The notes under the pieces are model-generated. The model was not told the origin of the DNA. It made no database searches and saw nothing but the letters and a program-made list of their open reading frames with translations. A program made the position numbers and the translations under genes. Positions 4,435-27,721 of a DNA stretch of 29,157 nucleotides are shown one piece after another (position 1 is the first letter of the stretch; every line of letters begins with the position of its first letter). The stretch comes from a virus, in IMG/VR virus record IMGVR_UViG_3300042905_000867, positions 1-29,157 of that record, one strand, 5' to 3'.

Positions 4435-4721
4435 ACCTAGCCGCTCTGGAATCTGAGGCGTTTCTTTTGGGAAACTGGAAAAGTTACGAGGATCTTGAAG
4501 AAAACTTATCAATAGATGAGTTAGTTCATACCCTTAACGCATATAGAAAGCGTCAGCGAGAAGATCAAAAATTCTTGGCAGCAATACAAGGAGTTGATCT
4601 TTCTGATAATGAACCAGTAAATATTACAGAAATGACTCCATCACAAGTGGTAAGTCAGGGATTCGGCGTAGGACTTGGAATTAGCCATAATATTCAGTCA
4701 GTAGTTGGTGATGAATTATGA
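4401..4721 (+). CDS. Tail assembly chaperone C-terminal extension (-1 frameshift product, gpGT-like)
   Basis: Read in the -1 frame after CCCAAAC, this adds 106 residues to the first 101 of the short protein, giving a fusion of about 207 residues (4099-4401 joined to 4401-4721). After a short P-T-G-S-G-A-S linker it contains S-W-D-K-L-D-L-A-A-L-E-S-E-A-F-L-L-G-N-W and then EDLEENLSIDELVHTLNAYRKR. This W...LD..LE.E.F..G.W...EELEENLS layout is what I recognise from actinophage chaperones. A separate start at TTG 4467 is formally possible but would cut off the W-D-K-L-D part and has no ribosome site. The end overlaps the tape measure start in ATGA (4718-4721). Confidence 0.85.
   Translation, partial: PTGSGASWDKLDLAALESEAFLLGNWKSYEDLEENLSIDELVHTLNAYRKRQREDQKFLAAIQGVDLSDNEPVNITEMTPSQVVSQGFGVGLGISHNIQSVVGDEL
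4408..4447 (+). other. Frameshift-stimulating stem-loop
   Basis: GGAGCGGC (4408-4415) pairs with GCCGCTCT (4440-4447) in an 8 bp stem including one G-U pair. Inside it CTAGTT (4417-4422) pairs with AACTAG (4429-4434), with 5 unpaired bases on the 3' side. The stop codon of the short product lies in the inner arm. The spacer from the slippery site is 6 bases, in the usual range for -1 frameshift stimulators. Confidence 0.7.
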
Positions 4722-7700
4722 GTAGAATAGATCTTCAGATAGTTGCTACGGGCAATTTTGCTGCCCTTGAAGGACAACTTGCTAGATTAAAGTCACAAAT
4801 AGCAACTCTAAATACTTTGGGTGTGGGATCTAACCCACAACAACTAAGAAATATTCAGTCCTACTCAACCGCCTTTGCTAATGCGCTAAGTGCTAGTGGC
4901 ATGTTCCAAAATAGAATGGTTAATCTTACTTCTGAAACTGAAAAATTTGGAAAATCTTTAGAAAGAGGAAATTTAAGATTAAGTCAATACTTTAGGGCTG
5001 GTGCTGAACATGCAAGAAAGCAGCAAGGACAGATTAGAGCATTAGCCAGAGAACAAGTAAGAATGATGAATTCTACTACCATGGCAATGGGTGATGGTAG
5101 GGCTATGGTTATTAGCCCAAAGGGTGTTGACGAGGCTATAGATAAACAAAAGATTCTTAATCAAGAGCATAGAATCTTTAGGCAAGTTGTTCAGGGTGGA
5201 GCAACACAATTAATCAACTGGGGTAAGAACACGCAATGGGCAGGGCGGCAGTTAACAGTAGGTCTTACCGTACCACTTACTATTTTTGGCGCTATGGCTG
5301 GAAAAGTATTTATGGATGCCGACAAACAACTTACCAGAATGGCAAAGGTTTATGGTGATGCATCAAAGGGAATGGTTAACACACAGGAACTTGATGCGAT
5401 TAGAGGAAAAACTCTAGCACTTGCCCAAGAAATAGCAAGCACCATGGGAGTCGCTGTAAGCGAAACTTTGGGAATCGCAGCAGACATTGCCGCTACTGGT
5501 AAAGAGGGCAATGAACTATTAGATTCAACTAGAGAGGCTATGAGACTATCGGTACTTGGTGAAGTTGATCGTCAAGAGGCTATGAAGGCCACGCTTGCAA
5601 TTCAAAGTGTTTTTAAACAAGATACAGAAGGTCTTACAAATTCAATTAATTTACTTAACGCAGTAGAAAACCAAACCTCAACTACATTAGATGATTTAAC
5701 TATAGGTATTATTAAGGCTGGCCCTGTTGTTCAAGGACTTGGAGGAAGTATTGCAGATCTTGCAAGCATGATGGTCGCTATGCGCGAGGGCGGAATTCCT
5801 GCATCTGAAGCAGCAAACGCAATTAAATCTTCATTAGGTGGATTGATTAATCCAACTAAGCAAACTACAGAACTCCTTAAAGGATTTGGGGTAAATCTTA
5901 CAGATATAGTTGATAGAAATGCTGGGGACGTAATAGGAACGTTAGTTGCCCTACAGGAAGCCTTAGATGGATTAGATGAATTAAGCCGACAAAGAGCAAT
6001 CGAACAAATGTTCGGTAAATTCCAGTTCTCTAGAATTAATGCTCTTCTTAATAATTTAAACAAGGCAGGAAGTCAAACAGAGCAAGTTTTAAAAATTGCT
6101 GGTATGAGTACCACACAATTAGCACAAACTGCTGACCGAGAATTAAAACTTTTAACAGAGTCTGCATCTATGAGATTTACAAGAGCAGTAGAAAGTTTAA
6201 AGGCTAGTCTTATCCCTATCGGTGAAACATTTGTTGATATAGGTGCTAAATTAATTAATGTTGCAACAACTATTATTGATGCATTTAACGATCTTCCAGA
6301 AGGATTAAAAACATTTATTAAAATACTTGCTGGGATAACTGCAATTGCTGGTCCAATTATTATGATTACAGGCGTATTCGGCAACTTCTTTGGCTATATC
6401 ATTAAAACTGTAGGCGCTCTTATGGCACTTAGGCGAGGGGCTAAGGGAGTGTTTGAATTCTATACAGCAGATTCTATAGCAGCAAGGGCATCAACAGAAC
6501 TTCTTTCTAAAGGAATGTTTAATCAAGTTGAAGCAACAAATGTACTCAAGGCAGCCCTTGAAACATTAAATGTAGAATTACAACAGGTTGCTACCAATAT
6601 GCGAGGAATGGGAGCAGCAGCCGCAACAGCAAGTCAACAGGCAAGGGCTGCAGCAACAGCATCTGCAACAGCAGTAGTTGCAGCACAGAGTCCACTTTAT
6701 ACCTTAGCAGGAAGAGCATCTAAGGGAGCCGTGGCAGGATTTGAAAGATCTCATTTAATTCCAGGACTTAAGGATAGTGGAAGGTATTCTTATCAAACTG
6801 GTGCTACATTGCTTCCTGCTGGATCTGCTGCAGGAGAATTCCAAAGAATGGGCTTTGCCCCAACCAACTTTTTTGGAGAGGGAGCATACGCAAATAAAAC
6901 TAGAGAACAAATTCTTAAGCAACAGCAAGCAATGCAGACACAGAGAGGAAGAGCCGCCTTTACAGATCTTTCTAGAAGCCCAGAACAAATGGCAAGACTT
7001 CTTCCTACACGGCAAGAATATAGTGCTAGTGCTGGTCAATATATGGCAACACTCAAACAACTACAATCACTAGCACCAAAAACTCTAAAAGAAATGTCTC
7101 AGCAAATGCAAATGGCAATATCTAGGGGAGATATTGAATCTGCAAAAAATATTTTAAATCAGGCTATTAATGCAAATTCTGTTCAATTTAAAGAATTAGT
7201 AACTAAAGAAACAACAGCCGTTGCTTCAATAAATGGAACATTAGATCAAGTAGTTACTAAAGTAATGGCAGATGAAGCAAAAACTGTTGCTGCATTAAAG
7301 GCCGCAGGAATGCAAGGTATATTAAAGAGTGGCAAGGGAATTGATCAGTTTATATACGCCATAACTGGTGGTGGAGGTGCTGCAAGATACGGTGCAACTG
7401 GTGGACAAGCAGCGGTATCTGGCTCCCTTGGAACTAGAGTAGCCCCCAATGAAAGAATAATGGCGAAGCAGGCTCAGATTGATGCTATTGAAGAACAAAG
7501 AATGGCGGTAAAAAGAAAGTTATTCGCTATTGAAAGCAATATTACTCAAAAACAACAAAACATTGAAACCCTAGTACAAGAGCAGCAAGTTTTAGAAAAT
7601 GAAAAGAAAGCCCTGTCTACTAAGAGAAAAGTAAATGCTAGTAAAATTGCAGAAATAGATGCTCAAATTGCAATATTAGCCGCAAAGGAGGCTGCCGATA

Positions 7701-10700
7701 GAAGATCATTAAGAAGTTCTAAAGGCGCTGCCACAACAAAGGCTAATCAAATAGAACAATTAACTGCACAAAAACGTTCTATGGAAGCAAATAGAGAAGT
7801 AATGATTAGAAGAAGGCTTACTGGTGAATTAATTAGATCAAATAATGTTGAGCAATCTGCTAGAGCAGGAATTGCAATGGCATTAACTCAAGAAAAGAGT
7901 TCTCTTCTTAAGCGAATTTCATCTCTAGAAAAAGTAACAATTGGAGATAATGTTTATTATGCAATGGTTGATAAATATGGAAAAACAATTGCATATGCTG
8001 ATGCAGTCAAAAGAAAACTCATAACTGTAGAGCAAGCAAATCAAATTAGATATACAGCACTAGGATCTGCTATTTCACAAGAAATGATGACCATGAATAT
8101 GAGTTCAAGGTCGCAGAGAAAAGTTGCTACATTTATGGAATCATTAAGCGTTCAGGTAAGAGATCAAATCGTATCACACGAATTAGTCCAGCAGGCGAAT
8201 GGAAGATACATCCTTGCACTTAAAAATGCTGAAGGAAAAATACTTGCTCAGTCTGCTGCCTTTGGAACAAATGCTAGACTTGGAAGAGGAATATCAACTG
8301 CAGGAATGCTTGCTGGCATGGGAACAATGTTTACCATGGGACAGGATAATGCTGCTGCAAAAATAGGTAGCGGTGCCTTAATGGGTGTTTCAATGGGTGC
8401 TATGACAGGAAATCCGTGGCTTGCTGTCGGAGGACTAGTTGCTGGAGCAGCCATACCAGCATTAATGGAATATCAAAAAGCACAACAAAAGGTAAATGAC
8501 GAACTTATTAAATATGGTGAAGCGCTAAATGGATCATCATTAATTATAGACCAATTCGCCTCAGAAATGGGTAAATTAAAGCCTTCTGAAAAATTAGCAG
8601 CAGCAATATCTGGTGTAGCAATGCCAGAAAAAACAATTGAATCTGGTAAGGCTTTATTAGATACAGAGGCTGGACAAAGACTTAGAGAAACATCTAGAAT
8701 GTTTGGTGGGGATCAATTAAGAAATTCCCTCCTAGCACAATTACAAAGACTTACTCTTATGGAAATATTTACTCCACAAGAGGCAAAAGATGTAGCACAG
8801 ACACTTGCTGTTGAACTAGGAAATCCAGCACTTGGAGAATCATTAGTTGCTGGAATTAATTCTGTATTAAATGAAGATGGAACCATAAAAGATAATATAT
8901 CTCAATTATTCTTAGATACAATTCCAGAAATACAATTACCAGAATTTGGTCAAAATCAAATAAATGACTACCTTACCAATAGATCCTGGACCGACACCCT
9001 TGCTGAACCATTTACTGCTGGAATAAATTTTGTAGATGAAATAGTAAATGATTTCTTAAATGATTTTGGTGGAGACAGTAGTGCATCAAGAGAAGAAACA
9101 GAGAGGGCATACAAGAGATTTGCTCAACAAAGCATCGGTCCATTAGCAGCATCCCTAGATCAATTGACAGAGGCACAGGCACTAGCAACCACACAATTCA
9201 TGAAAGGTGAATTGACGTTTGAGCAATATTCATCTCAAATGGAGACTATCCAGAAGAGAAATATTGAAGCAGCCGACGCCATGCTTAAGTTAAAAGAAAG
9301 TGGTGCAGATATTGGTGCAATGCTTAAAGACATTGCAGACCAGGCAGGAAGAGGAGCAGATTATTCTCAAATAGAAGGAATAGGAAAGAATCTTTTTGAA
9401 AGCCTATCAGTAGGAGAAAGATTCCTATCACAAATTCAAGTTGCTGCTGCATATGGCGACATTACTCTAGGTGATATGAAGAATCTAGAAACCATAATTG
9501 CAAACGAGGACACTAGAAGAAATATTGAATTGATATTTGATGTTAAAGGCGCAGAAGATAACGCTGTTCAAATAATCAAATTACTTGGCATGGGTATGGA
9601 TGCAGAGTTTATTGCTGATATTGTAGTAAGATCTGAAGAAATTGGAAAGCCTATATCAGAAATATATGGAATGCTTTCAGCAGTTTCTGGGTTGCCTCCA
9701 AATATTCAAAAAACTATTATATCTAATATTCAATCAGATCCTGATGCACTCACAGATTTAATTAACAAATATGAGTATGCCAATAGTCTTCCAGACTCTA
9801 AGAAAGAACTTAGGTTAGAGATTTTTGGTAATGAATATTTAACTGAAATACAAGAAAACTGGAAACAGTTTATAGCATTGCCAGATGAAGAAAGAAAAAC
9901 TGCAGTAGTAACCACCCTGCTTGGATATGAATATTCTTTTGCACAACCAGCATTACCAACTCCAACTGAAGTGTCAGATCTTGCTGGTCCAGATACTTCT
10001 GCAATGATTTCTTCACTTACTGGTGGCTCAAGTGGGGGTTCTGGCGGAGGATCAGATGCTGCAAATAAAGCAATAGATAAAAAAATAGCCCAGCAAGATA
10101 AGATCATAAAGCAAATTCAAAAAGAGCGCGAAGAAAGACAGAAACTTCTTGACCTAGAAAAGAAGGCACTAGATTTTGCTATGAAGCAGCAAGATTTAGA
10201 AAGCCAAATAATGATTGCTAAAGCAGAAGGTCGTCTAGCAGATGCTGCACTTCTTCAATCACAATTGGATGCAAATGAAATTGCTGATAGAGAAGATGAA
10301 AAAGAAAGACTTAGGCAAGAGCGTGAAGATAAAAGAATCCGCGCAGCAGAAAGAAGAAAGAAGCAACTTGAAAAGCAAAAAGAAGATTCATCAGGCGGTG
10401 GCGGTAGTGGCGGCGGGGGGCCATCAGACGCTGAATTATCAAAGATAGAAACTAGATTAGAATTTTTAAATAATCAATTAGCATCAGCACTAAATAACAA
10501 TGTTGAAATATTATCGCAAATAGAAGAAAAGGGTGCCAGCGCATTTTGGGAATCTGAGCCAATTAAAAACTATATCAAAGAGGCGCAAAAACTTGGCATA
10601 CCACTAGAAGTAATAAATGAACAACTTGAAACAACATTTGATTATTTAGTTACTCAAGGATTTAAAGATTATCCACTAATGACTAAACTTAGTGAAGGCT

Positions 10701-11806
10701 TAAGAGAAGTAGGAATTTATGGATCTTCACTAGAAAAAATCCTCCCCAACATTTTTGCAATTATGCAGGATAAGAGTTTAACAAAAGATGAAGTAATCGC
10801 TTCTATAGCAGAACAATTTAGAATTGCTGGAATGAAGGCTGATGAGGCTAGAAAAGCAGCAGAAAAATTCTTTAACACTAGTCCAGTAAGCAAGGTGTTT
10901 GATGATATTGATAAGTTTAAGAATAAGTTCGATGAGGTAAAAGACGAATTTGATCCCAACCAAGCAAAAATTATTTCAGAAGAATACGCTGCTGGAATTA
11001 GAAAAGGTCTTACTAAAGAAGAAATATGGTCAAATATTTCTAGAAGAATATCTGATGCTGTTTATAAAGATTCTGATTTAGATCCTTTAATTGCAGATAA
11101 GAAGGCTGCTGCCACAGCACAAGCATTGCAAACTAGAGTAACTAATGATTTTAAAGATTTTGATGTTAAATTCCCAATCAAGAGTGAATATACCAGTAAT
11201 GCTCCAGAATGGCTAGAAGGAGCATTAAATCAAGGTTATGTAGACAAGGGAATGAGAGCATTAGGATTTACCGTTGAGCATAATGGAAACTTCACCACTA
11301 CACCATCATCAACTCCACAGGAAGTTACTGGAACAGTAAATATTTCTGGAGTGACCGCTGTTAACGGAAGACTTCCAGTATCAGCACTAGTTGGAGCAGC
11401 CCTCGGAGGATTAATCAAGAGGGGCACAGGGGGGATGATTTATGGTCCAGGAGGGCCAACTGAAGATAGAATTCCTACAATGCTTTCAAACGGAGAGTAT
11501 GTAATTCGTGCATCTAGTGTAGATAAATATGGAATCCCCTTCCTTGATATGGTTAATATGGGAACATTACCAGCATTAGGCCGTGGAGGGTACTCCAAGT
11601 ATCCAAATATGGTTGGAAGAATGTCCATGGGTGGGGCAGTTTATTATAATAGTGGGGGGATTGTTGATGAATCTCCTAGCAATGTAGAGTATAATATTAA
11701 TGTAAATGTGGCTGGATCTAACGCTTCCGCCGATGAAATTGCGAAGGAAGTAATGTCTGCTATTGAAAGAAAACAAAGAATGACTAAGACGGTGAATAGA
11801 ATATAA
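4718..11806 (+). CDS. Tape measure protein, TP901 family, 2362 residues
   Basis: The longest gene sets tail length; at the usual ~1.5 angstrom per residue it predicts a tail near 350 nm (inference). Residues about 167-465 match the TP901 phage minor tail region (W-A-G-R-Q-L-T-V-G-L-T-V-P, then helices, G-G-I-P-A-S-E-A-A-N-A-I-K-S and R-I-N-A-L-L). Hydrophobic segments lie at about 532-571 and 1189-1252, the kind thought to help form a membrane channel. Long charged coiled coils lie at about 921-1037 and 1785-1890; the second is flanked by Gly/Ser linkers (1769-1781 and 1891-1904). The C-terminal segment near 2238-2272 has the common G-P-G-G-P-T-E-D-R-I-P and L-S-N-G-E-Y-V-I-R-A motif. No peptidase motif was recognised within it. 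It starts in ATGA overlap with the chaperone. Confidence 0.95.
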   Translation: MSRIDLQIVATGNFAALEGQLARLKSQIATLNTLGVGSNPQQLRNIQSYSTAFANALSASGMFQNRMVNLTSETEKFGKSLERGNLRLSQYFRAGAEHARKQQGQIRALAREQVRMMNSTTMAMGDGRAMVISPKGVDEAIDKQKILNQEHRIFRQVVQGGATQLINWGKNTQWAGRQLTVGLTVPLTIFGAMAGKVFMDADKQLTRMAKVYGDASKGMVNTQELDAIRGKTLALAQEIASTMGVAVSETLGIAADIAATGKEGNELLDSTREAMRLSVLGEVDRQEAMKATLAIQSVFKQDTEGLTNSINLLNAVENQTSTTLDDLTIGIIKAGPVVQGLGGSIADLASMMVAMREGGIPASEAANAIKSSLGGLINPTKQTTELLKGFGVNLTDIVDRNAGDVIGTLVALQEALDGLDELSRQRAIEQMFGKFQFSRINALLNNLNKAGSQTEQVLKIAGMSTTQLAQTADRELKLLTESASMRFTRAVESLKASLIPIGETFVDIGAKLINVATTIIDAFNDLPEGLKTFIKILAGITAIAGPIIMITGVFGNFFGYIIKTVGALMALRRGAKGVFEFYTADSIAARASTELLSKGMFNQVEATNVLKAALETLNVELQQVATNMRGMGAAAATASQQARAAATASATAVVAAQSPLYTLAGRASKGAVAGFERSHLIPGLKDSGRYSYQTGATLLPAGSAAGEFQRMGFAPTNFFGEGAYANKTREQILKQQQAMQTQRGRAAFTDLSRSPEQMARLLPTRQEYSASAGQYMATLKQLQSLAPKTLKEMSQQMQMAISRGDIESAKNILNQAINANSVQFKELVTKETTAVASINGTLDQVVTKVMADEAKTVAALKAAGMQGILKSGKGIDQFIYAITGGGGAARYGATGGQAAVSGSLGTRVAPNERIMAKQAQIDAIEEQRMAVKRKLFAIESNITQKQQNIETLVQEQQVLENEKKALSTKRKVNASKIAEIDAQIAILAAKEAADRRSLRSSKGAATTKANQIEQLTAQKRSMEANREVMIRRRLTGELIRSNNVEQSARAGIAMALTQEKSSLLKRISSLEKVTIGDNVYYAMVDKYGKTIAYADAVKRKLITVEQANQIRYTALGSAISQEMMTMNMSSRSQRKVATFMESLSVQVRDQIVSHELVQQANGRYILALKNAEGKILAQSAAFGTNARLGRGISTAGMLAGMGTMFTMGQDNAAAKIGSGALMGVSMGAMTGNPWLAVGGLVAGAAIPALMEYQKAQQKVNDELIKYGEALNGSSLIIDQFASEMGKLKPSEKLAAAISGVAMPEKTIESGKALLDTEAGQRLRETSRMFGGDQLRNSLLAQLQRLTLMEIFTPQEAKDVAQTLAVELGNPALGESLVAGINSVLNEDGTIKDNISQLFLDTIPEIQLPEFGQNQINDYLTNRSWTDTLAEPFTAGINFVDEIVNDFLNDFGGDSSASREETERAYKRFAQQSIGPLAASLDQLTEAQALATTQFMKGELTFEQYSSQMETIQKRNIEAADAMLKLKESGADIGAMLKDIADQAGRGADYSQIEGIGKNLFESLSVGERFLSQIQVAAAYGDITLGDMKNLETIIANEDTRRNIELIFDVKGAEDNAVQIIKLLGMGMDAEFIADIVVRSEEIGKPISEIYGMLSAVSGLPPNIQKTIISNIQSDPDALTDLINKYEYANSLPDSKKELRLEIFGNEYLTEIQENWKQFIALPDEERKTAVVTTLLGYEYSFAQPALPTPTEVSDLAGPDTSAMISSLTGGSSGGSGGGSDAANKAIDKKIAQQDKIIKQIQKEREERQKLLDLEKKALDFAMKQQDLESQIMIAKAEGRLADAALLQSQLDANEIADREDEKERLRQEREDKRIRAAERRKKQLEKQKEDSSGGGGSGGGGPSDAELSKIETRLEFLNNQLASALNNNVEILSQIEEKGASAFWESEPIKNYIKEAQKLGIPLEVINEQLETTFDYLVTQGFKDYPLMTKLSEGLREVGIYGSSLEKILPNIFAIMQDKSLTKDEVIASIAEQFRIAGMKADEARKAAEKFFNTSPVSKVFDDIDKFKNKFDEVKDEFDPNQAKIISEEYAAGIRKGLTKEEIWSNISRRISDAVYKDSDLDPLIADKKAAATAQALQTRVTNDFKDFDVKFPIKSEYTSNAPEWLEGALNQGYVDKGMRALGFTVEHNGNFTTTPSSTPQEVTGTVNISGVTAVNGRLPVSALVGAALGGLIKRGTGGMIYGPGGPTEDRIPTMLSNGEYVIRASSVDKYGIPFLDMVNMGTLPALGRGGYSKYPNMVGRMSMGGAVYYNSGGIVDESPSNVEYNINVNVAGSNASADEIAKEVMSAIERKQRMTKTVNRI

Positions 11807-12279
11807 TGTCTCTTTTAACTCCAAGCATTATTAAGTTACAAGTCGCTTCTAAGGCTGCCGCAGAGTTTGTTCCAATTACTGGTGAGAATAATGGACAATT
11901 AACTTTATCAGATCATTCTAGATCACCACTATCAGTAAATTATGAAATGATTGAAAACTCACAAAGAATGGCTAACGGAACATTAAGAAAATATATAATT
12001 TCTAAAAAAAGAAGCCTATCCTGCTCCTGGGAATTACTTCCTACCATTAATGATTTAGTAGTAGACGGAAATGCATCTGCTCTAAGCATGAAGAGATTCT
12101 TTGAGGTAAATAATGTTTATCCAATGAACATGACTTTATATTACAAAAGAAATTCATCTGCTGATTTTTCATATTCAGAAACAATAGAGGTATTCTGGGA
12201 TTCATTTAACTTTGATGTAATTAAAAGATATAAAGATTTTGACTATTGGAATATTACAACAGATTTTATGGAGATTTAA
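11806..12279 (+). CDS. Small minor tail protein in the distal tail (Dit) position
   Basis: A 157-residue protein coupled to the tape measure by TAATG (11804-11808). It is beta-rich, with an L-S-C-S-W-E-L-L-P strand, a Y-P-M-N-M-T-L-Y-Y-K-R strand, and a C-terminal F-N-F-D-V-I-K-R-Y-K-D-F-D-Y-W segment. Its place between the tape measure and the hub is that of distal tail proteins, which form the ring joining tube and tip. The tube-like strand pattern is compatible with this, but sequence alone does not prove the family. Its last codons carry GGAGAT, the ribosome site for the next gene. Confidence 0.6.
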   Translation: MSLLTPSIIKLQVASKAAAEFVPITGENNGQLTLSDHSRSPLSVNYEMIENSQRMANGTLRKYIISKKRSLSCSWELLPTINDLVVDGNASALSMKRFFEVNNVYPMNMTLYYKRNSSADFSYSETIEVFWDSFNFDVIKRYKDFDYWNITTDFMEI

Positions 12280-15200
12280 TGTTAGGATCTTCAAATACAC
12301 AAAGCCATGTAAAAAATAGTAAATCTTTAGATGTGAAGCCTAGGGTTTTCTTAGAAATAAATAACAATGATTATGGCAATCCTTATTTTTATGGAACGGG
12401 TACGCAAAATTCTAGTATATTACAAGAACTTATAAGAACAGTATCTAACTATCCGGCATCTCCAGCGCCAATAAATGCAGGATCTATTTTAGGAAGTGGA
12501 GGGCGAGGAGTAAAAACTGCCATATCAGGAATAGATAATCACGCAGTTCTTTTAAAAACTAATCTTTCTGCGGGAGAACCTATAGAATATTCATGGTACA
12601 CAGAATCTTCTGCTAATCAAAGGTCGGTAAAGTTTAATTTATTTCTTAAATCAGATTATGAATATCAAATAGAAACAAATGATCTTACATGCATGGAGTC
12701 ATTTGATGTTTTATTGGTTGCCGTAGGATATGATTCTTCTAATAAAATAGTTACTTCTGAAACAGTAGCAGAATCAGTTACAGTTGATTCTATTCAATGG
12801 AAAAATGTTTCAATAGCATTTGCAAATCCAGATCAATACGCAACGGTTAATAAAGTAAGATTAAATATATATGTAACTGCACCAGCCTATAAAAAAGTTG
12901 CATTACTAGTGGGTCAACCCGTAGTTTCTAATATTTCAGACTACGAAGTTTATTCATCTAACAGAATGCCGTTGTCAGAGGTTTTTGAGCCAGGTAGACC
13001 AGGAGAATTTTTAATTGATATTTCTGGTTCTTTAGAGGAAACTCCACCAATAAAACCAACAATTAGAGGAATTACTCAGCAACCCACCCCAATACACATG
13101 GCAACATACTATGCATTAGGTCCAAAGTACGAATTAGTCCAGCGTAGTGTTACTCCATATCCAAATAATCCATACACTTATTATGTGTCTGGTACTTCTA
13201 CTGAGAGTAAGCAAGTTTGGGCACTATACCAAAACAAGATAAAAACAAATAAAATAGTTCTTAAATTTAATGCCATTGCGTGTAAACCACAAACTCCTGC
13301 AGTTAATATTTTAACAAGTTCTGGATGGTCTAATAATATCGCTTCTTCAGCATCCATAGGTTCTGATGGAACTCTAGTTTTATACTTTAACGGAACATCG
13401 TGGGGAACTTCTAAGTGGACCAGTATATCTTATCCAACTATTTCTACATCATCAATTAATGCAGGAGATATAGTATTAGGATCTAATTCTGGCTATCAAG
13501 AAATTTGGGGAATAAGGGTAGAGGGTGTAGCACAACAAGTTACAAATACTGATTTTATAGATCTTCCAGGAAGAATGGAATTAATAGAAGTATCACCCAG
13601 ACTTGATATAGATGTTAGCAACTTTGTTACATCTGTTTCTACAATTTCTGAAAGTTCTTCAGATGCTTTATTAAATATTGGCGGGATAAGTTCAAATAGT
13701 TATAACATAAACTTATCAAATATACCACTTATTAAAAATTTGCATGATTTTTCAACAGGCAATTTTTCAAATCCTGATGTAAGACCAATAAGTAATATTT
13801 CCTCTACTTCAGCGCTACAAAATTTAATTAGAAAAGGTGTAAAGGTAAAAGGCGGGTACGACATTGACACAGGTTACCGAGGTACTGGTATTGCCACAGG
13901 TAAAACATACATCCAGTCATTTGTGGGATATGTAGATACTTGGAAAGAAAATAATCAAGAAATAGTTATTAATGCATTCGATGTTATAAAAAATCTACAA
14001 TCAGTAAATTCTGAGTCTATTTATTTAGAAGGTAAAAAAATATCAGAGTGTATATATTCTGTTTTAGATCCGATAGGATTTGGAGAGGTGTACGGAGAAG
14101 AATTAGTAGACCTTAGAGTTTTTGCAAATACATCTGATTCAGAATTAACATTCTCTCAGAATGAAAAAATAAAATTTTTCTGGACTTCTAATGATAAAAC
14201 AGTATCTGATACATTAAATAATTTGTTTAGAATATATCAAATATCTATGTATACAGATGAATATGGTGCGGTAAGATTTAAAACTCTTTATGACTACAGC
14301 ATGTCATATAAAAATCTAACAAAAACTTCATCTCCATCATACCCAGATATTTTTATACAAGATATAAATGATAATAATTCTACAAGTAATTTAATTAGTG
14401 TAGACATAACTGAAAATGAAAGGCCAAAATCTATACTAGTTAAATACAGAATACCAAGACCAACTCTAGCGCAACCCACTCCTCCAAAAACTAAAAAAGA
14501 CAATAAGCCAGTAGCAGAAAATATAAATATAAAAATATCAGAATCAACCGACAGAGTTTGGATTCTTCAAGACGATTCATACATAGTTCCATATATTCAA
14601 TTATCTGGCGGTGGAATAAAAACTACATCTCAAAACTTTATTCCTTATGATATTTCTATGACTAATATTTTTATGAGAGCGATTCCATTTTCTTCGATGC
14701 TTTTGATAGACAAAGAAATTGTTAGTTATGATGGCATAGAGTATGAGTTTTCTTATAAAACATCTACTGGCTTTTCAGTATTACTTAATCAGACTGTTAA
14801 AAGTTCTGAAGAGATAGAAATGATTAAATCTGAAATTTTTTCCAACAAGGGAGGTAGATCCATATCGTTTAAGCCTACTGGAAAATTGATGAATGTAAAG
14901 AGGGGCCTGTTTGGAACAACTCCAACACCTCACAACAGACAAACTTCTAGTACTAACGCTCCATGGCTCATGAAAAGATTTACTAGAACAGAAAATTCAT
15001 ATAAAAATGCTGTTTCTTCTCAAAAATTTACAACAACATTAAATGGAATTAACGTTACATCAAACAACAATTCAGAAATGTTATTATTATATCCAAAAGA
15101 TTCTGATTCTGATGCGTATTTAATGAGAGATAAAAGGCGTCTACTTTGCCAATTTAAACTAGGAGATATACCAGATAAAAAAGAAGGATATGTTGGAGTT

Positions 15201-15950
15201 GGAGTCGGCCTAGAAATAAATTCTAGCAATAATTTAGTAGGAGGACTTCTTGTTTGGGTCGGTGTGGAAACAGATAAGAAGAAAACAAATCCTACAGTAT
15301 ATGTTGAACAAATTAAAAGCAACGGAACTATAGAAACGCTTGTAGAAAAAGATCAATTTAAATATTCCGATAGAGTTATAGAAGAAAATGAAAACATGGA
15401 GATTTACATATCCCTTAATGAAAATAGAGATGAGTGTAAAGTTCTTATAGGCGGGTCCACAGCATTTGAAAAGATTATATCTAAAAAGATAGACGGAAAA
15501 AAGAAAGAAATAAAACAGCATACCTTCAAAATTAGACAACTATCTGGAAGAACAACGTTTGGATTTATTGCTAATAGATATGGAACAGCAACAATGGGGC
15601 AGTATTTATTCGGAGTCTCAGATAAATTTGAAGATATGAATAGCATAAATCTTTCTCTAGTAGATTCTAAATATTCACTCAAAAATTCTCTACCAACTAA
15701 AACATTTTTTATAGGAAGTAACAACCTACTTGATACAATAGTAGACGGAAGAAATGTAACTGGAATAAACTTGTTGTCTAAGGATAACTTTACATATACA
15801 GGCGCACCAGTAGCACGGGGAATACAGGTATTCGATGTTGAGTATGAAAAGTTTCCTGTAATAAGAACTCCAATTGCAGAATGGACAGGGTATACATACG
15901 ACTCCAATGCGTTTGAGGGCGGCAATTTAATTTCTGAGGAGCCTAGATAA
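12279..15950 (+). CDS. Tail hub / minor tail protein with carbohydrate-binding-like insertions, lacking a C-terminal hub segment
   Basis: A 1223-residue protein. I chose ATG 12279 because it forms the local TAATG overlap and has GGAGAT at 12270-12275; an in-frame ATG at 12246 has no ribosome site. Residues about 90-225 look like a beta-sandwich carbohydrate-binding insertion. The hub-like core includes residues about 560-680 (A-F-D-V-I-K-N-L-Q, C-I-Y-S-V-L-D-P-I-G, then F-F-W-T-S-N-D-K-T-V and Y-T-D-E-Y-G-A-V-R-F). Residues about 910-1121 form a second beta-rich, jelly-roll or concanavalin-like region with short repeats such as GVGVGLEI. It ends at residues 1179-1205 with I-Q-V-F-D-V-E-Y-E-K-F-P-V and a short tail. 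The hub-like segment that should follow is in the next gene. Function: tail tip hub, probably contacting the host surface. Confidence 0.7.
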   Translation: MLGSSNTQSHVKNSKSLDVKPRVFLEINNNDYGNPYFYGTGTQNSSILQELIRTVSNYPASPAPINAGSILGSGGRGVKTAISGIDNHAVLLKTNLSAGEPIEYSWYTESSANQRSVKFNLFLKSDYEYQIETNDLTCMESFDVLLVAVGYDSSNKIVTSETVAESVTVDSIQWKNVSIAFANPDQYATVNKVRLNIYVTAPAYKKVALLVGQPVVSNISDYEVYSSNRMPLSEVFEPGRPGEFLIDISGSLEETPPIKPTIRGITQQPTPIHMATYYALGPKYELVQRSVTPYPNNPYTYYVSGTSTESKQVWALYQNKIKTNKIVLKFNAIACKPQTPAVNILTSSGWSNNIASSASIGSDGTLVLYFNGTSWGTSKWTSISYPTISTSSINAGDIVLGSNSGYQEIWGIRVEGVAQQVTNTDFIDLPGRMELIEVSPRLDIDVSNFVTSVSTISESSSDALLNIGGISSNSYNINLSNIPLIKNLHDFSTGNFSNPDVRPISNISSTSALQNLIRKGVKVKGGYDIDTGYRGTGIATGKTYIQSFVGYVDTWKENNQEIVINAFDVIKNLQSVNSESIYLEGKKISECIYSVLDPIGFGEVYGEELVDLRVFANTSDSELTFSQNEKIKFFWTSNDKTVSDTLNNLFRIYQISMYTDEYGAVRFKTLYDYSMSYKNLTKTSSPSYPDIFIQDINDNNSTSNLISVDITENERPKSILVKYRIPRPTLAQPTPPKTKKDNKPVAENINIKISESTDRVWILQDDSYIVPYIQLSGGGIKTTSQNFIPYDISMTNIFMRAIPFSSMLLIDKEIVSYDGIEYEFSYKTSTGFSVLLNQTVKSSEEIEMIKSEIFSNKGGRSISFKPTGKLMNVKRGLFGTTPTPHNRQTSSTNAPWLMKRFTRTENSYKNAVSSQKFTTTLNGINVTSNNNSEMLLLYPKDSDSDAYLMRDKRRLLCQFKLGDIPDKKEGYVGVGVGLEINSSNNLVGGLLVWVGVETDKKKTNPTVYVEQIKSNGTIETLVEKDQFKYSDRVIEENENMEIYISLNENRDECKVLIGGSTAFEKIISKKIDGKKKEIKQHTFKIRQLSGRTTFGFIANRYGTATMGQYLFGVSDKFEDMNSINLSLVDSKYSLKNSLPTKTFFIGSNNLLDTIVDGRNVTGINLLSKDNFTYTGAPVARGIQVFDVEYEKFPVIRTPIAEWTGYTYDSNAFEGGNLISEEPR

Positions 15951-16972
15951 TGTCAGAATTTTATCCTGATAGTGATCAAATTATTGATGATGCAGTCGCA
16001 TATGCATTAAGACAGGTAGGAAAGCCATATAGTTTTTCTGCTAGTCCTGAAAGTTCATGGGATTGTACTAAATTAACAACATGGGCATATAGTAAGGCTT
16101 CTGGTGGACAAGGATCTTCTGGTGGAAGAATACAACTTACTCCATATTCATATAAGCAGGCCCAAGAAGTTAGAAAATTAGATGTAACTTCTGGAAGTAC
16201 AGACGGGTTACAGAAGGGAGATCTCCTATTCTTTTTCGTCGGAGATGCTCATCATGCATCAATGTATATAGGTGATGGTCAGATTGTTGAAGCATCAAGT
16301 CCTGCTACTGGAGTAAGAACAACTACTGTATGGAACTCATGGAATACTACATACTTTTCCTGGGCGGGAAGGCCACATAAAATTGCTACCTATGGCGGAA
16401 ATTCTGGAACTGGTAATACAGAAACTGGTAAAGATAAAGAAGATGTTATTACTAAGGTTGCTGCAAGAAAAATAAGTAGAAATGCCCTAGCAGTATCTAA
16501 GGTGACGGGCACACCCCAGAGGGCTAGATTTGCTGTAATGAATATGGCAAATGAAAGTTTATATCTTACTCAAGATAAATTAGATTTGATTAGCAAAACT
16601 GAATTTTATATAAAGGCAAAAGCGCTAGTTCTTGGAGATCAGTATGAAATCAAGAAGGATATCGCTGGAGGCAGAAACTCCTTTGAGATAACAATAGATA
16701 GTGATTATATTCAATCCAAGCAAGTGGCAGAAGCGGTGGCGTCGATGGCCTCCAACTCTTTTGAAAGTCCGATAAAATCTATAAATGTAGAAATATTTGG
16801 AAACCCACTAATTCAAATAGGAGATATTGTAAAGTTTAATTACTTTACTGGAAAGATAGAGAGTTCTACAAATGATTTCTATATTGTTTCTAGGGTGCAG
16901 AATAATTTCTCCATGGGACTAACCACATCCTTAACTCTCACACCCCTAAATAAAATAGTTTCGGTGGTATAA
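15950..16972 (+). CDS. NlpC/P60 peptidase fused to a hub-like C-terminal domain
   Basis: A 340-residue protein coupled by TAATG (15948-15952). Residues about 8-145 are an NlpC/P60 cysteine peptidase: Cys39 in S-W-D-C-T-K-L, His102 in H-H-A-S-M-Y-I-G, and Glu114 twelve residues after His102, the spacing and Cys-His-Glu set of actinobacterial RipA. Such tail enzymes cut peptide stems of peptidoglycan during DNA entry. A Gly/Thr/Lys linker (about 150-165) leads to residues 175-340, which look like a phage hub C-terminus: Q-R-A-R-F-A-V-M-N, I-T-I-D-S-D-Y-I-Q-S-K, then I-F-G-N-P-L-I-Q-I-G-D-I-V. No signal peptide is seen, so it should act from the virion. Confidence 0.85.
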   Translation: MSEFYPDSDQIIDDAVAYALRQVGKPYSFSASPESSWDCTKLTTWAYSKASGGQGSSGGRIQLTPYSYKQAQEVRKLDVTSGSTDGLQKGDLLFFFVGDAHHASMYIGDGQIVEASSPATGVRTTTVWNSWNTTYFSWAGRPHKIATYGGNSGTGNTETGKDKEDVITKVAARKISRNALAVSKVTGTPQRARFAVMNMANESLYLTQDKLDLISKTEFYIKAKALVLGDQYEIKKDIAGGRNSFEITIDSDYIQSKQVAEAVASMASNSFESPIKSINVEIFGNPLIQIGDIVKFNYFTGKIESSTNDFYIVSRVQNNFSMGLTTSLTLTPLNKIVSVV

Positions 16973-24034: not shown

Positions 24035-24790
24035 ATGAATAACGACCTAAAGTGGATGATGGTTTCAGACGTTCACTTTCCTAGGCACGACCCGCGTAAG
24101 GTAGAACTATTTCTTAAGGTTATGAAATGGTTTAAGCCAGACGCAGTAGATTTGCTTGGTGATATTGACGATGCAGATTCCACTAGTAGGTGGGCAGCAG
24201 ACAAGCCATTAGAAATGTCAATCTCTCTAGAAGACGGAGGCGTTCGTGAGACAAGGCAGTTCCTTAAAGATATCAGAAAGATCGTACCCAGCGCTGATTG
24301 TCATTTTCACGATGGGAATCATGGCTGGACTCGCCACGGCGAGTACCTTGCTAAGAAAGCGCCACAGTTTCTTGAACTAGTAACCCCAGACACTTTGTAT
24401 GATTACTCTAACGCTGGCTTTGAATGGCATAATTGGAACGAGCCACCAGTACAACGATTCGGAGATATCTATGGTCATCATGGGGAATCTATTTCTAAGC
24501 ACGCTGGAGAGTCAGTTCGTAATGATGTAAATAACTGGGGTGTATCTCTGGTTAGAGGACATTCGCATAGAATGGGTGCATACTTCCAGACATATAATCT
24601 TTCTGGTCAGGAACTGCGCGGGTATGAAATCGGGCACCTTTGCGACGAAGACCAGATGGACTACTCTATCCAAAAAAATTGGCAGGCAGGATTTGCTATT
24701 GCCCATGTTGTAAATGATTATCCTCACATGCAATTAATTCAAATTCATGATTATACTTGTGTGGTAGATGGGAAAATATTCTCAGCATGA
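24035..24790 (+). CDS. Calcineurin-like metallophosphoesterase
   Basis: A 251-residue protein with the full metal-binding set in order: S-D12-V-H14, G42-D43-I-D-D46, G94-N95-H96, G147-H148-H149 and G175-H176-S-H178. This superfamily cleaves phosphomono- or diesters using two metal ions. The substrate here is unknown; nucleic acid, cyclic nucleotides or modified ends are all possible. The family is frequent in actinophages between structural and replication genes. The start ATG 24035 follows a weak GGGA. It ends in ATGA overlap with the next gene, which suggests coupled translation. Confidence 0.85.
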   Translation: MNNDLKWMMVSDVHFPRHDPRKVELFLKVMKWFKPDAVDLLGDIDDADSTSRWAADKPLEMSISLEDGGVRETRQFLKDIRKIVPSADCHFHDGNHGWTRHGEYLAKKAPQFLELVTPDTLYDYSNAGFEWHNWNEPPVQRFGDIYGHHGESISKHAGESVRNDVNNWGVSLVRGHSHRMGAYFQTYNLSGQELRGYEIGHLCDEDQMDYSIQKNWQAGFAIAHVVNDYPHMQLIQIHDYTCVVDGKIFSA

Positions 24791-24960
24791 TGACGCATAA
24801 GAAATGTAAGGGCAGCGTGTATGTAGATAGAGTATTTTCTGGCCCCCTAAGGCTGGATCTGTTTTGCCTAAGATGTGGCAAAAGATGGTTTATTCAAAGA
24901 AACAAGGGAGCGTTTGGCCCATGGCTAAGTCAACTAGAATACGAAAAGGAACTAGCCTAA
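24787..24960 (+). CDS. Short Cys-containing protein, possible zinc ribbon (57 residues)
   Basis: Starts at ATG 24787, overlapping the phosphoesterase stop as ATGA. A longer in-frame open stretch from 24757 lies inside that gene and is not favoured. The product has a Lys-Lys-Cys near residue 7 and an F-C-L-R-C pair near residues 28-31, followed by G-K-R-W-F-I. The single Cys-x2-Cys plus one extra Cys fits a minimal or incomplete zinc ribbon. Its last 40 bases overlap the next gene in another frame. Function unknown, possibly nucleic-acid binding. Confidence 0.6.
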   Translation: MMTHKKCKGSVYVDRVFSGPLRLDLFCLRCGKRWFIQRNKGAFGPWLSQLEYEKELA

Positions 24961-25436
24961 GATATTTTTTTCTTAATGGTGAAGTTCACAAAGTACTAAG
25001 AATAAGTCGTGCAGAAGATATAATAACTGCATGGAATTATCCGCAGGGCAAACGCTGTACTTATATATGGTCAGCAACAAAATCTAATATGGAAAAAGCC
25101 TTTACCATGAAACAAGTATCTAAAATATTTAGAAGAGATCCATTAGTTATTCATGGGTATATAAAAGAAGGTAAAATTAGAAGGCCATATCAAATATACA
25201 CAATTGATGATAATAGAAATCCAGGAAAATTTATTTTTCATGAAGATGAACTTAGAGAACTACATTCGTTTCTTTTAACTGTTCATAGAGGCAGGCCAAG
25301 AAATGATGGACAAATTACTCAATCCAAGGTAATGTCAAGGGCAGAACTTGAGGCATTGATGAAAGAAGAAACTGTACTTTATACTAAAGATTCCGCTGGA
25401 GAATTTGTTCCAGTATGGAAGCAACCAGATTGGTGA
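24921..25436 (+). CDS. DNA-binding protein with helix-turn-helix and AT-hook-like motif
   Basis: I chose ATG 24921 (171 residues, GGGAG at 24906-24910); the frame is open further upstream to 24864 but without a ribosome site. Residues about 61-82 (F-T-M-K-Q-V-S-K-I-F...I-H-G-Y-I-K-E-G-K-I) look like a MerR/excisionase-type helix-turn-helix. They are followed by F-I-F-H-E-D-E-L-R-E-L at 104-114. Residues 123-127 carry R-G-R-P-R, the core of an AT-hook, within H-R-G-R-P-R-N-D. It may regulate transcription or organise phage DNA, and its target is unknown. Confidence 0.65.
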   Translation: MAKSTRIRKGTSLRYFFLNGEVHKVLRISRAEDIITAWNYPQGKRCTYIWSATKSNMEKAFTMKQVSKIFRRDPLVIHGYIKEGKIRRPYQIYTIDDNRNPGKFIFHEDELRELHSFLLTVHRGRPRNDGQITQSKVMSRAELEALMKEETVLYTKDSAGEFVPVWKQPDW

Positions 25437-25438
25437 TA

Positions 25439-25678
25439 ATGGGTAAGAAGAAAAAGGAAGAAGAGCCTTTAGTTTTAGATCAAGATGGGATACTTAATGA
25501 ATGTGCAACATCCTTGATGGCAGCATTCGATTTTGCTATTGAACATAGAGATGTTGACTCTATGCTAGCAGTTTCAGATAGGTGGCTTAGGCTATATGCT
25601 ATGCTTTCCCACATGGAAGAAGAAGTTAGTTCAGAGCAGATAAAGTTAGGATTTATTGATGACAACTCACAACCATGA
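25439..25678 (+). CDS. Small acidic/helical protein of unknown function (79 residues)
   Basis: ATG 25439 follows the previous stop by two bases, and GGTGA at 25432-25436 is the only possible ribosome site. An in-frame ATG at 25415 lies inside the previous gene. After an M-G-K-K-K-K-E-E-E start, the protein is helical (ILNECATSLMAAFDFAIE, DSMLAVSDRWLRLYAMLSHMEEE). I do not recognise the family. Confidence 0.65.
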   Translation: MGKKKKEEEPLVLDQDGILNECATSLMAAFDFAIEHRDVDSMLAVSDRWLRLYAMLSHMEEEVSSEQIKLGFIDDNSQP

Positions 25679-25877
25679 GTCAACTAATGTCAGAGTTGAA
25701 CTACAATTTGTAAGAAATCTTGGAAACTATGAAAGTCTTAGAGTATCTATCGGAGTGGAAGATTATGTGCGCCAGGGAGAAACTGTTGACGCCGCTACAG
25801 ATAGGGTATATGATTTCGTAGAGAGCAAGGTTGTAGAAAAAGTTTCTGAAATTGAAAAGGAGTTAAAGAATGGCTAA
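25659..25877 (+). CDS. Small conserved-looking phage protein of unknown function (72 residues)
   Basis: The favoured start is ATG 25659, overlapping the previous gene, with TTAGGA at 25646-25651. A TTG at 25656 is an alternative. It has a beta pair (V-R-V-E-L-Q-F-V-R-N-L and S-L-R-V-S-I-G-V-E-D-Y-V) followed by a long helix (AATDRVYDFVESKVVEKVSEIEKEL). I have seen this layout in other phage small proteins but know no function. It overlaps the following gene by 8 bases. Confidence 0.65.
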   Translation: MTTHNHESTNVRVELQFVRNLGNYESLRVSIGVEDYVRQGETVDAATDRVYDFVESKVVEKVSEIEKELKNG

Positions 25878-26193
25878 GGCTGATACTAAGCAGCCCTATA
25901 CACTTTTAAGCCTTTATGAGAAACTATACTCTGAGAAATATAACAAGACTGCCAGACTTAACAAGTTTAAAGAAAAGTGGGCTATGCAAGACGTTATTGA
26001 ATCAGTCGGATATGACAGGGCGAGAGAACTGCTTGAGTATTATTTTCGTGTTACTAAGCAGGGGCATCCACTTCAATGGTTCTTCTATAATTTCGACAGA
26101 TTAGATGACATGCTGCTACAATCAGAGGAAGATATGCAGCGCCGTCGCAAGTTGCGTGAGGCCACTAAGAAAATGGTAGAGGATAATTCATGA
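25870..26193 (+). CDS. Small helical protein upstream of helicase, possible helicase loader
   Basis: A 107-residue basic protein with AAGGAG at 25857-25862 and ATG 25870. It is helical throughout, with a conserved-looking E-Y-Y-F-R-V-T-K-Q-G-H-P-L-Q-W-F-F-Y-N-F block (residues 56-75) and a charged C-terminal helix (EEDMQRRRKLREATKK). It overlaps the helicase start in ATGA. A small protein directly before a DnaB-type helicase may load it onto DNA, but no known loader family is recognisable. The role is inferred from position only. Confidence 0.65.
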   Translation: MAKADTKQPYTLLSLYEKLYSEKYNKTARLNKFKEKWAMQDVIESVGYDRARELLEYYFRVTKQGHPLQWFFYNFDRLDDMLLQSEEDMQRRRKLREATKKMVEDNS

Positions 26194-27416
26194 ACACAGA
26201 AGCAGCAGTAATTACATCAGTATGTCAGAACAAGGATATTGCTACTATTCTGGCAGACAATGTTGATGATATCTTCCAGTCCCACCGCGACGTTTGGGAA
26301 GGTCTAAAGTCTTACTACTATAAGTTTAAGTCTGTTCCAGATGCTAATGTGCTTCAGGAGAAGTTCCGCGACTTTGAACCAGTTAAGGTTACTGCTGAAA
26401 CTGGGTACTACCTTGATCAATTAAAGAATGAATACCTCGCATCTCGTATGCGTAATCTTCTCATGAAGAGTGGCGCATCTCTTAAAGATAATGCTGCTGC
26501 CAGAGTTCTTGCTGATATGCAATCAGAGATTGCTTCACTATCAAGGCTAACTAACAATGTGCGAGATGTTGATCTAACAGACTATGAGTTGGCTGAGAAA
26601 CATATTGTCGCTGTTCAGGAGCGCTCTGCTGTCATGGGTGGCAGTCCAGGCATTAAGACGGGATTCACGGCACTAGATTTAGCCTACCCGACTGGGATGG
26701 CCCCTGGACATTTAATTGTTGCTATTGGCTGGCCAGGGCGTGGCAAGACCTGGCTTACATCCTATCTCGCGTGCAAGGCTTGGGAGCAGGGATTCAAGCC
26801 TATGATTGTTTCTCTAGAGATGAGTCCAGAGAATATGCGTGACCGCATCTACACTATGCTGGGTAGTGGAATGTTTAGGGCTTCTGATTTCTCCCGTGGG
26901 AATATTAATATTGATGACTTCCACAACTGGGCAAAGAAGCGATTTGATGATAAGAACAGTTTTATTCTAGTATCTAACGAGGGGACAAATGAAGTTACTC
27001 CACAGACGGTCCAGGGTAAGATCGATCAGCATCGCCCTGACCTTGTTATCTTGGATTATCACCAGTTGTTTAATGACACTAAGAGATCTAATTCTGAGGT
27101 TGAGCGCAACCGTAACATCTCGCGGGAATTCAAACTACTAGCCGTTCGTAATAATATTCCTGTCATCGACATTACCGCAGCAACTATGGATGATGTATCA
27201 GATCAAGATGCTCCACCGCTTCTCTCACAGGTAGCATGGTCAAAGGCTATTGAGTATGATGCTGATATGGCTATGGCTGTCCATCGTCACCCAGATACTA
27301 ATATTATTGAAGTTGTAAGTCGTAAGAATAGGCATGGTACGGATTTTGCCTTTTATCTTGACTGGGACATTGACCGTGGAATTGTTAAAGAAATTTACGA
27401 TGATATACCAGTCTAA
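26190..27416 (+). CDS. DnaB-type replicative DNA helicase
   Basis: A 408-residue protein. Residues 1-120 are a helical N-terminal domain, followed by a G-I-K-T-G-F-T-A-L-D-L linker (residues 154-164). The RecA-like ATPase core has Walker A at 180-187 (G-W-P-G-R-G-K-T), a catalytic Glu at 210 in V-S-L-E-M-S, and Walker B at 285-290 (L-V-I-L-D-Y). Such enzymes form hexamers that unwind the fork 5' to 3'. It is a little shorter than bacterial DnaB (about 470). The arginine codons are mostly CGN, unlike the neighbouring primase. Confidence 0.92.
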   Translation: MNTEAAVITSVCQNKDIATILADNVDDIFQSHRDVWEGLKSYYYKFKSVPDANVLQEKFRDFEPVKVTAETGYYLDQLKNEYLASRMRNLLMKSGASLKDNAAARVLADMQSEIASLSRLTNNVRDVDLTDYELAEKHIVAVQERSAVMGGSPGIKTGFTALDLAYPTGMAPGHLIVAIGWPGRGKTWLTSYLACKAWEQGFKPMIVSLEMSPENMRDRIYTMLGSGMFRASDFSRGNINIDDFHNWAKKRFDDKNSFILVSNEGTNEVTPQTVQGKIDQHRPDLVILDYHQLFNDTKRSNSEVERNRNISREFKLLAVRNNIPVIDITAATMDDVSDQDAPPLLSQVAWSKAIEYDADMAMAVHRHPDTNIIEVVSRKNRHGTDFAFYLDWDIDRGIVKEIYDDIPV

Positions 27417-27418
27417 TG

Positions 27419-27424
27419 TATAAT
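27419..27424 (+). promoter_or_regulatory. Possible -10 box for a near-leaderless transcript
   Basis: A perfect TATAAT at 27419-27424 lies just after the helicase stop, within AATGTATAAT, the string also used at 22904-22913. TTTACG at 27394-27399 is a weak -35 at 19 bp. The ATG at 27435 is only about 4 bases past the predicted start and lacks a ribosome site, consistent with a leaderless message. Confidence 0.45.
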
Positions 27425-27434
27425 TAAATATATC

Positions 27435-27713
27435 ATGAACAAAAAACTGAAGAGTTTTGGAATGCAAGGTCAAATTCATGACGATGCTGCTATCCCAAGA
27501 CTAAGAAGTCAATATGAACAACTCATAGAATCAGATATGAGAGAGCAGGGGTACGTTCCCATACTAGACTTAGATATTCAGTTTTCTTTAGTATATGATG
27601 AATCGATAGATATATACGAATTTGATATAGTAATCTATGGTGTGTATGTGGGAAAGAAAAAAGCACATCTATATGAAGGCTTCTCAGGACAGAATTTAGT
27701 TCCTAAACAATAA
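27435..27713 (+). CDS. Protein of unknown function between helicase and primase (92 residues)
   Basis: Starts at ATG 27435, with no recognisable ribosome site. The N-terminal half is helical (IPRLRSQYEQLIESDMREQGY), then a beta hairpin (L-D-L-D-I-Q-F-S-L-V-Y and Y-E-F-D-I-V-I-Y-G-V-Y-V-G) and a K-K-K-A tail. I do not recognise it. It sits between helicase and primase and may belong to replication. Confidence 0.65.
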   Translation: MNKKLKSFGMQGQIHDDAAIPRLRSQYEQLIESDMREQGYVPILDLDIQFSLVYDESIDIYEFDIVIYGVYVGKKKAHLYEGFSGQNLVPKQ

Positions 27714-27721
27714 GGAAAGTA

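Follow-up and report, generated by a model that had tools for sequence, protein, structure and literature searches.

The tail hub of an uncultured virus, a single polypeptide in most of its relatives, is divided over two adjacent genes close to its C-terminus, and the second of these genes begins with an NlpC/P60 wall enzyme. The stretch of DNA analyzed (hereafter the window) is the 29-kb IMG/VR virus record IMGVR_UViG_3300042905_000867. The explanation that we consider quite probable is a single gene fission near the hub C-terminus, with translationally coupled pieces that reassemble and an enzyme fused at the break. At the level of sequence, the homology of both pieces, the break point, its one origin, purifying selection and the swapping of enzymes could be demonstrated.

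Organization of the tail module

The tail module of the window is siphophage-like. It runs from the tape measure protein (TMP; 4718-11806; PF10145) over a gene of 157 aa to the hub gene, encoding the first piece (P1), and the gene of the second piece (P2), followed by tail genes of 127, 310 and 811 aa. One-base overlaps of stop and start codons are present at 11806, 12279, 15950, 17372, 18304 and 20739, that is, at most tail-gene boundaries, and the boundary inside the hub is therefore in keeping with the style of the operon. The order TMP, small gene, hub, small gene, 300-aa tail gene is common to eight named phages (Sham, Coruscant, LukeCage, Tomas, BillNye, Gilson, Stigma and Wakanda), which carry a single hub gene at the site where the window carries two. 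A scan of GTDB genomes did not find relatives of the window. Beyond the tail module, the region 24035-28681 encodes a metallophosphoesterase, a DnaB-like helicase and a DnaG-like primase.

P1 (1223 aa; 12279..15950, + strand), the N-terminal piece of the hub, contains the core of the hub, a carbohydrate-binding-like region and the strands that directly precede the break. It is recognized by an HMM of single-chain hubs and by phrog_10359, the latter matching residues 319-1207 of the mechanical ORF with E 6e-29. The start of P1 is likely the ATG at 12279 rather than the mechanical TTG at 12246, because the former creates the one-base TAATG overlap with the upstream stop that is seen at most boundaries of the operon; the TTG would overlap the upstream gene by 34 nt. 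The last hub block that clearly aligns with single-chain hubs before the break is the strand QVFDVEYEKFP (15825-15857, + strand), the counterpart of PYEVTFEKSP in phage Sham and YYDVEYQTP in the single-chain relative L047. An earlier note, made from the letters of this DNA, had stated that the hub gene ends soon after this motif, and the stop codon indeed follows at 15948-15950. The remaining tail of P1 (AEWTGYTYDS... to the stop; 15876..15947, + strand) forms the end of the broken loop, and its xxxGYxY pattern can be aligned across all split lineages.

P2 (340 aa; 15950..16972, + strand) is composed of an NlpC/P60 endopeptidase, a flexible linker and a hub C-terminus. The same note had read the start of this gene as NlpC/P60, in agreement with the match of PF00877 to residues 24-131 (E 8e-12, 45.5 bits, above the curated cut-off of 23). 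Combining PF00877, AlphaFold and Foldseek, we place the domain at residues ~12-142 (15983..16375, + strand). Its catalytic triad is predicted, by position, as C39 (16064), H102 (16253) and E114 (16289). The His-to-Glu spacing of 12 is the same as in RipA (H432/E444), whose residues C383, H432 and E444 are those mutated in PDB entries, according to the entry titles. When P2 was modeled alone with AlphaFold, the NlpC block was well formed (pLDDT 67-91), and a Foldseek search against the PDB returned for the enzyme part mainly NlpC structures, including RipA, with prob 1.00. Judged by its triad, the domain would be an active wall-cutting endopeptidase.

The glycine-rich, low-complexity linker that follows (residues ~143-189; 16376..16516, + strand) was delineated by alignment and by a pLDDT mostly < 50, and varies among relatives. 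Behind it lies the C-terminal piece of the hub (residues 191-340; 16520..16969, + strand), delineated with the single-chain C-terminus HMM described below, with the motifs RARFAVMN (191-198), DYIQSK (252-257) and FGNPLIQIGD (283-292), then TTSLTL. Predicted alone, this part mostly has a pLDDT < 50, compared with ~63-89 for the same region within the single chain of the relative L046. Such low values are as expected for half a fold, although a shallow alignment may also contribute. Foldseek matches of P2 in BFVD to gpD, gp27 and 43-kDa tail proteins are in line with a hub identity, but weak.

One hub family divided over two genes

Profile comparisons offer the clearest view of how the hub is distributed over the two genes. 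The PHROG family phrog_10359, a single family of 1081 aa made up of single-chain minor tail proteins, is divided between them, with profile positions 122-907 in P1 and 983-1076 in P2. Likewise, an HMM built from eight Stanwilliamsviridae single-chain hubs matches both P1 (E 3e-28) and residues 234-331 of P2 (E 4.6e-23). We also built separate HMMs of the C-terminus and of the N-side solely from unbroken hubs, with no split sequence included. The C-terminus HMM matches P2 with E 1.9e-35, while all other frames of the window and all reversed frames give E of at least 0.2; the matching N-side HMM finds P1 alone in the window (E 3e-29). Because the two halves of the single-chain hub match P2 and P1 separately, P1 really lacks the hub end and P2 really bears it. 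Hub homology is found at the same gene position as annotated hub or minor tail proteins, by phrog_10359 as well as by synteny, yet over the C-terminal domain the chain of the window is not continuous but broken at 15950.

These results support the proposal of the earlier note that the C-terminal segment of P2 is the end of a hub protein. The two outcomes that it had named as fatal did not materialize: the profile comparison of the P2 C-terminus with single-chain hubs revealed homology, and the hub is not complete without P2, as P1 lacks the hub C-terminus by the single-chain HMM. The same data bear on the view that P2 is a stand-alone tail lysin, with a C-terminus that serves only for binding to the tail and shares no ancestry with the hub chain. 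Tail enzymes of the NlpC/P60 kind are common, and lambda gpK and RcGTA g14 are separate tail peptidases adjoining hub genes, which lends this view some appeal. Nevertheless, we find it highly improbable: it is refuted on homology by residues 191-340 of P2, which are the hub's own C-terminus (E 2e-35) and are missing from P1, and in one lineage of relatives (L029, L030, L033) P2 is kept without any enzyme.

At the break site itself, the Sham chain runs unbroken (...HEYRPYEVTFEKSPVLYSSLYVSNDSQIVQDEYVHNPFGAKFIIAN...), whereas in the window 30 residues separate EKFP from the stop codon, with ARFAVMN found from residue 192 of P2. In the single-chain relatives, both halves are continuous across the site, with a segment of 25-48 residues there; the corresponding join in split viruses, enzyme excluded, measures 52-57 residues. 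AlphaFold modeling of the single-chain hub L046 (mean pLDDT 73.5) places the break in a loop between the strands 887-894 and 900-908, with ~165 hub residues after it. In Foldseek, this model matches best with contractile-system hubs/VgrG and T5 tail-tip chains, and further with Mu gp44 (E 2e-9 to 1e-5), so that the hub fold is seen on the relative L046 rather than on the window chain itself. The last 100 residues in split relatives weakly match PF24032 YQBQ (E 0.0005-0.07). We place the break in or beside the last hub domain (HDIV).

The L046 model also has Foldseek matches to CBM66, and a CBM66/LamG-like carbohydrate-binding region is probably present in the hub ahead of the break. This region spans residues ~640-808 of L046 and, with its position judged from the alignment, ~950-1130 of P1.

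The junction between the genes

The junction (15936..15952, + strand) consists of the ribosome-binding site GAGGAG followed by TAATG, in which the hub stop TAA (15948-15950) shares one nucleotide with the ATG of P2 (from 15950). All eleven junctions that we read in split viruses have both the 1-nt stop/start overlap and an upstream SD-like motif, and in none is a slippery heptamer present within the final 60 nt. This arrangement has to be weighed against the suggestion that the stop/start is artefactual or bypassed, by a programmed -1 frameshift or an assembly error, and that one fused polypeptide is made. P2 does lie in the -1 frame of P1, the 1-nt overlap could be used for frameshifting, and the hubs of L043 and L063 resemble frame errors. 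We consider the suggestion very unlikely, however, since the split is kept in 17 contigs of several lineages, an SD-like motif precedes every P2 start that we read, and one-base overlaps are just as well present at 11806, 12279, 17372, 18304 and 20739. Programmed frameshifting was rejected on the absence of a slippery heptamer. The hubs of L043/L120 and L063, broken elsewhere by frame changes, probably represent assembly errors or decaying genes and were excluded from the split set.

Relatives and the origin of the split

Searching IMG/VR with a single hub sequence returned nothing, and alignment queries were needed. With an alignment of hub C-termini, the best 80 of 325 relatives were kept, plus further loci. 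Most relatives among those kept have single-chain hubs, typically of 1060-1660 aa, and a one-chain hub at the equivalent place is found in Streptomyces phages and many uncultured phages.

The split hubs adopt three forms. An NlpC domain heads P2 in the window and in L001, L002/L003, L022, L023, L024 and L028 (P2 of 336-344 aa). In three contigs (L025, L026, L027), an N-terminal domain of ~230 aa takes its place, assigned to Amidase_2 (PF01510) with E 2e-5 and 3e-5 at 25.3 and 24.8 bits, below the cut-off of 26. Six more contigs (L029, L030-L032, L033-L034) have an empty slot, with P2 of 186-193 aa representing the hub C-terminus without an enzyme. A scan of IMG/VR with the end of P1 recovered the same 16 contigs and no fourth slot state, bringing the split clade found there to 17 including the window. 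L004-L006 were discarded, as they showed NlpC-only matches in unrelated genes without a hub C-terminus.

To place the break, we used an unrooted tree (67 rows, 526 columns, 13 split rows) built on the part of the hub that all rows share, with the enzyme left out. All 13 split rows form one clade (100/100), with the single-chain rows outside it in several deep lineages. Within the clade, the NlpC (96/89), amidase (100/99) and empty (100/100) groups are each recovered, the latter two as sisters (99/95); some of the long branches join close to the split clade, yet each group is highly supported. On this sequence evidence, the hub split is one old event. The earlier claim that a hub chain was broken at one loop fits both this single placement and the continuity of the single chains across the site.

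Taken alone, the unrooted tree accommodates one change in either direction, and the split could thus be ancestral, with the single-chain hubs formed by fusion. We give very little credence to this direction: single-chain rows span several deep lineages, and the distant hubs of T4, T5, 80alpha and VgrG keep all four hub domains in one chain (PMC10721106). For these two reasons, the simplest reading is that the split is derived. The dN/dS ratios of 0.04-0.14 for P1 and P2 (seven pairs, several near synonymous saturation) indicate that neither gene is decaying.

Wall enzymes in the hub slot and in the tape measure protein

The split records were scanned with PF00877. Viruses with NlpC in the slot have one match each, located in the slot, and those with an amidase in the slot have none. 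Three empty-slot viruses (L029, L030, L033) also have one match each, which lies in the TMP frame (3054-3693 aa). All split viruses share the final 130-150 residues of the TMP, with 45-55% identity between lineages, and the NlpC of the empty-slot viruses is located directly upstream of this conserved C-terminus (~690-1040 in L029; also in L030 and L033). At this TMP site, the slot-NlpC and slot-amidase records have no NlpC. TMP NlpC and slot NlpC are 33-35% identical. Each split virus thus has one recognized tail wall enzyme, either in the hub slot or in the TMP. The complementarity is no more than suggestive, as it reflects very few independent changes. Among single-chain records, NlpC was also noted in L057 and L151 (G025 13981-14307 and G040 25460-25705), in long frames of 2915 and 2119 aa that are probably tape measure proteins.

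The hub break thus behaves, in the sequences compared, as an exchangeable enzyme slot holding NlpC, Amidase_2 or none. Because the slot of relatives holds an amidase or stays empty, the break and the graft are separable events. This qualifies the claim that the enzyme was grafted onto the C-terminal part of the hub: it holds for the lineage of the window, but not for relatives with an amidase or an empty slot.

A different order of events can be envisaged, in which the enzyme was inserted first into the loop of a single chain, the stop/start arose later, and the empty-slot lineage lost its enzyme. Two of the three slot states do include an enzyme, and enzymes also seem to occur inside single-chain hubs, for example in gp119 of Rhodococcus phage E3. 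We regard this order as possible but rather unlikely, as the loop spans 25-48 residues in the 75 single-chain hubs measured, in every case too few for an enzyme. On a further proposal our confidence is evenly divided: fission would have created a standing docking slot, in which the N-terminus of P2 is permissive for swapped enzymes, with the TMP as the alternative carrier and one wall enzyme per tail.

Proposed mechanism and implications

Probably, a single fission event cut the hub gene within a loop close to the hub C-terminus. P1 and P2 are then produced from neighboring genes whose translation is coupled through GAGGAG and TAATG, and would associate, presumably with a 3:3 stoichiometry, to complete the trimeric hub closing the tube. 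With its new N-terminus, the C-terminal piece offers a free attachment point, where an NlpC/P60 endopeptidase is joined via the flexible linker in the lineage of the window. In relatives, Amidase_2 occupies this point, or the slot is empty with NlpC in the tape measure protein. Tail lysins cut peptidoglycan as the tip opens. Each hub would accordingly hold wall-cutting domains on tethers, which attack peptidoglycan when the DNA enters, and the timing in infection would be such that NlpC cuts peptide cross-links while the tip is opening.

The window represents a natural, phylogenetically placed case of a core tail part that tolerates a chain break, with the break turned into a site of enzyme exchange. 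It opens the testable question of how a tail lysin is physically positioned within the tip and whether it is able to move between tape measure and hub, and it marks a hub loop that may tolerate fused cargo. For annotation it holds a warning, as hub C-termini can hide in genes labeled NlpC/P60 or amidase.

Comparison with known hubs

In phage lambda, gpK is a peptidase. The hub domains of lambda (gpL/gpK/gpI/gpJ) are, as in the window, carried on two polypeptides, with gene K between them (PMC10721106). The lambda break, however, lies in the insertion of HDII, with HDI in gpL (PMC10721106), whereas that of the window lies near the C-terminus. Moreover, gpK is a separate protein not detected in virions, in contrast to the window enzyme, which is fused to a hub fragment. 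RcGTA (gp13/14/15) and roseophage R4C (014/015/016) similarly have a two-chain hub whose halves flank a peptidase gene (PMC7296036, PMC10276861); the two RcGTA hub chains together align with T5 pb3, their one-chain equivalent (PMC10038345). Unlike in the window, the chain is again interrupted within the HDII insertion, and their peptidase is a small, unattached protein believed to reside inside the tube lumen. With the lambda/RcGTA type, the window therefore shares the two-polypeptide hub, but neither the HDII break nor the separate peptidase gene: its break falls ~165 residues before the single-chain end and its enzyme is fused to the C-terminal piece.

The Stanwilliamsviridae hub (Sham gp38, phrog_10359) is homologous to that of the window and has the same position in the gene order, but is unbroken, ~1065 aa long and without an enzyme. 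NlpC/P60 joined to a one-chain hub is found in diffocin CD1368, Deep-Blue Gp189 and Vp4 Gp110, the latter two being bacteriolytic (PMC11406892). In these three, the enzyme follows the hub in a single chain, while in the window it heads the C-terminal fragment of a broken one. Gp119 of Rhodococcus phage E3 (L018 4852-7272) apparently has, as read from its sequence, NlpC inside a hub-like chain, with hub-like sequence resuming after it; this is a single chain with the insertion near its middle. An SLT-like stretch may precede the NlpC of gp119. In T5, whose tail-tip hub chains are matched by the model of the single-chain relative L046, the hub pb3 is unbroken and the wall enzyme is located on the tape measure protein pb2 (PMC10038345), in contrast to the hub piece in the window.

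In a limited literature search, in which absence is not proof, we found no description of a near-C-terminal hub break with a fused enzyme and enzyme exchange. Split hubs whose two parts enclose a peptidase gene thus have precedents; a break near the C-terminus with a covalently grafted enzyme would be a new form.
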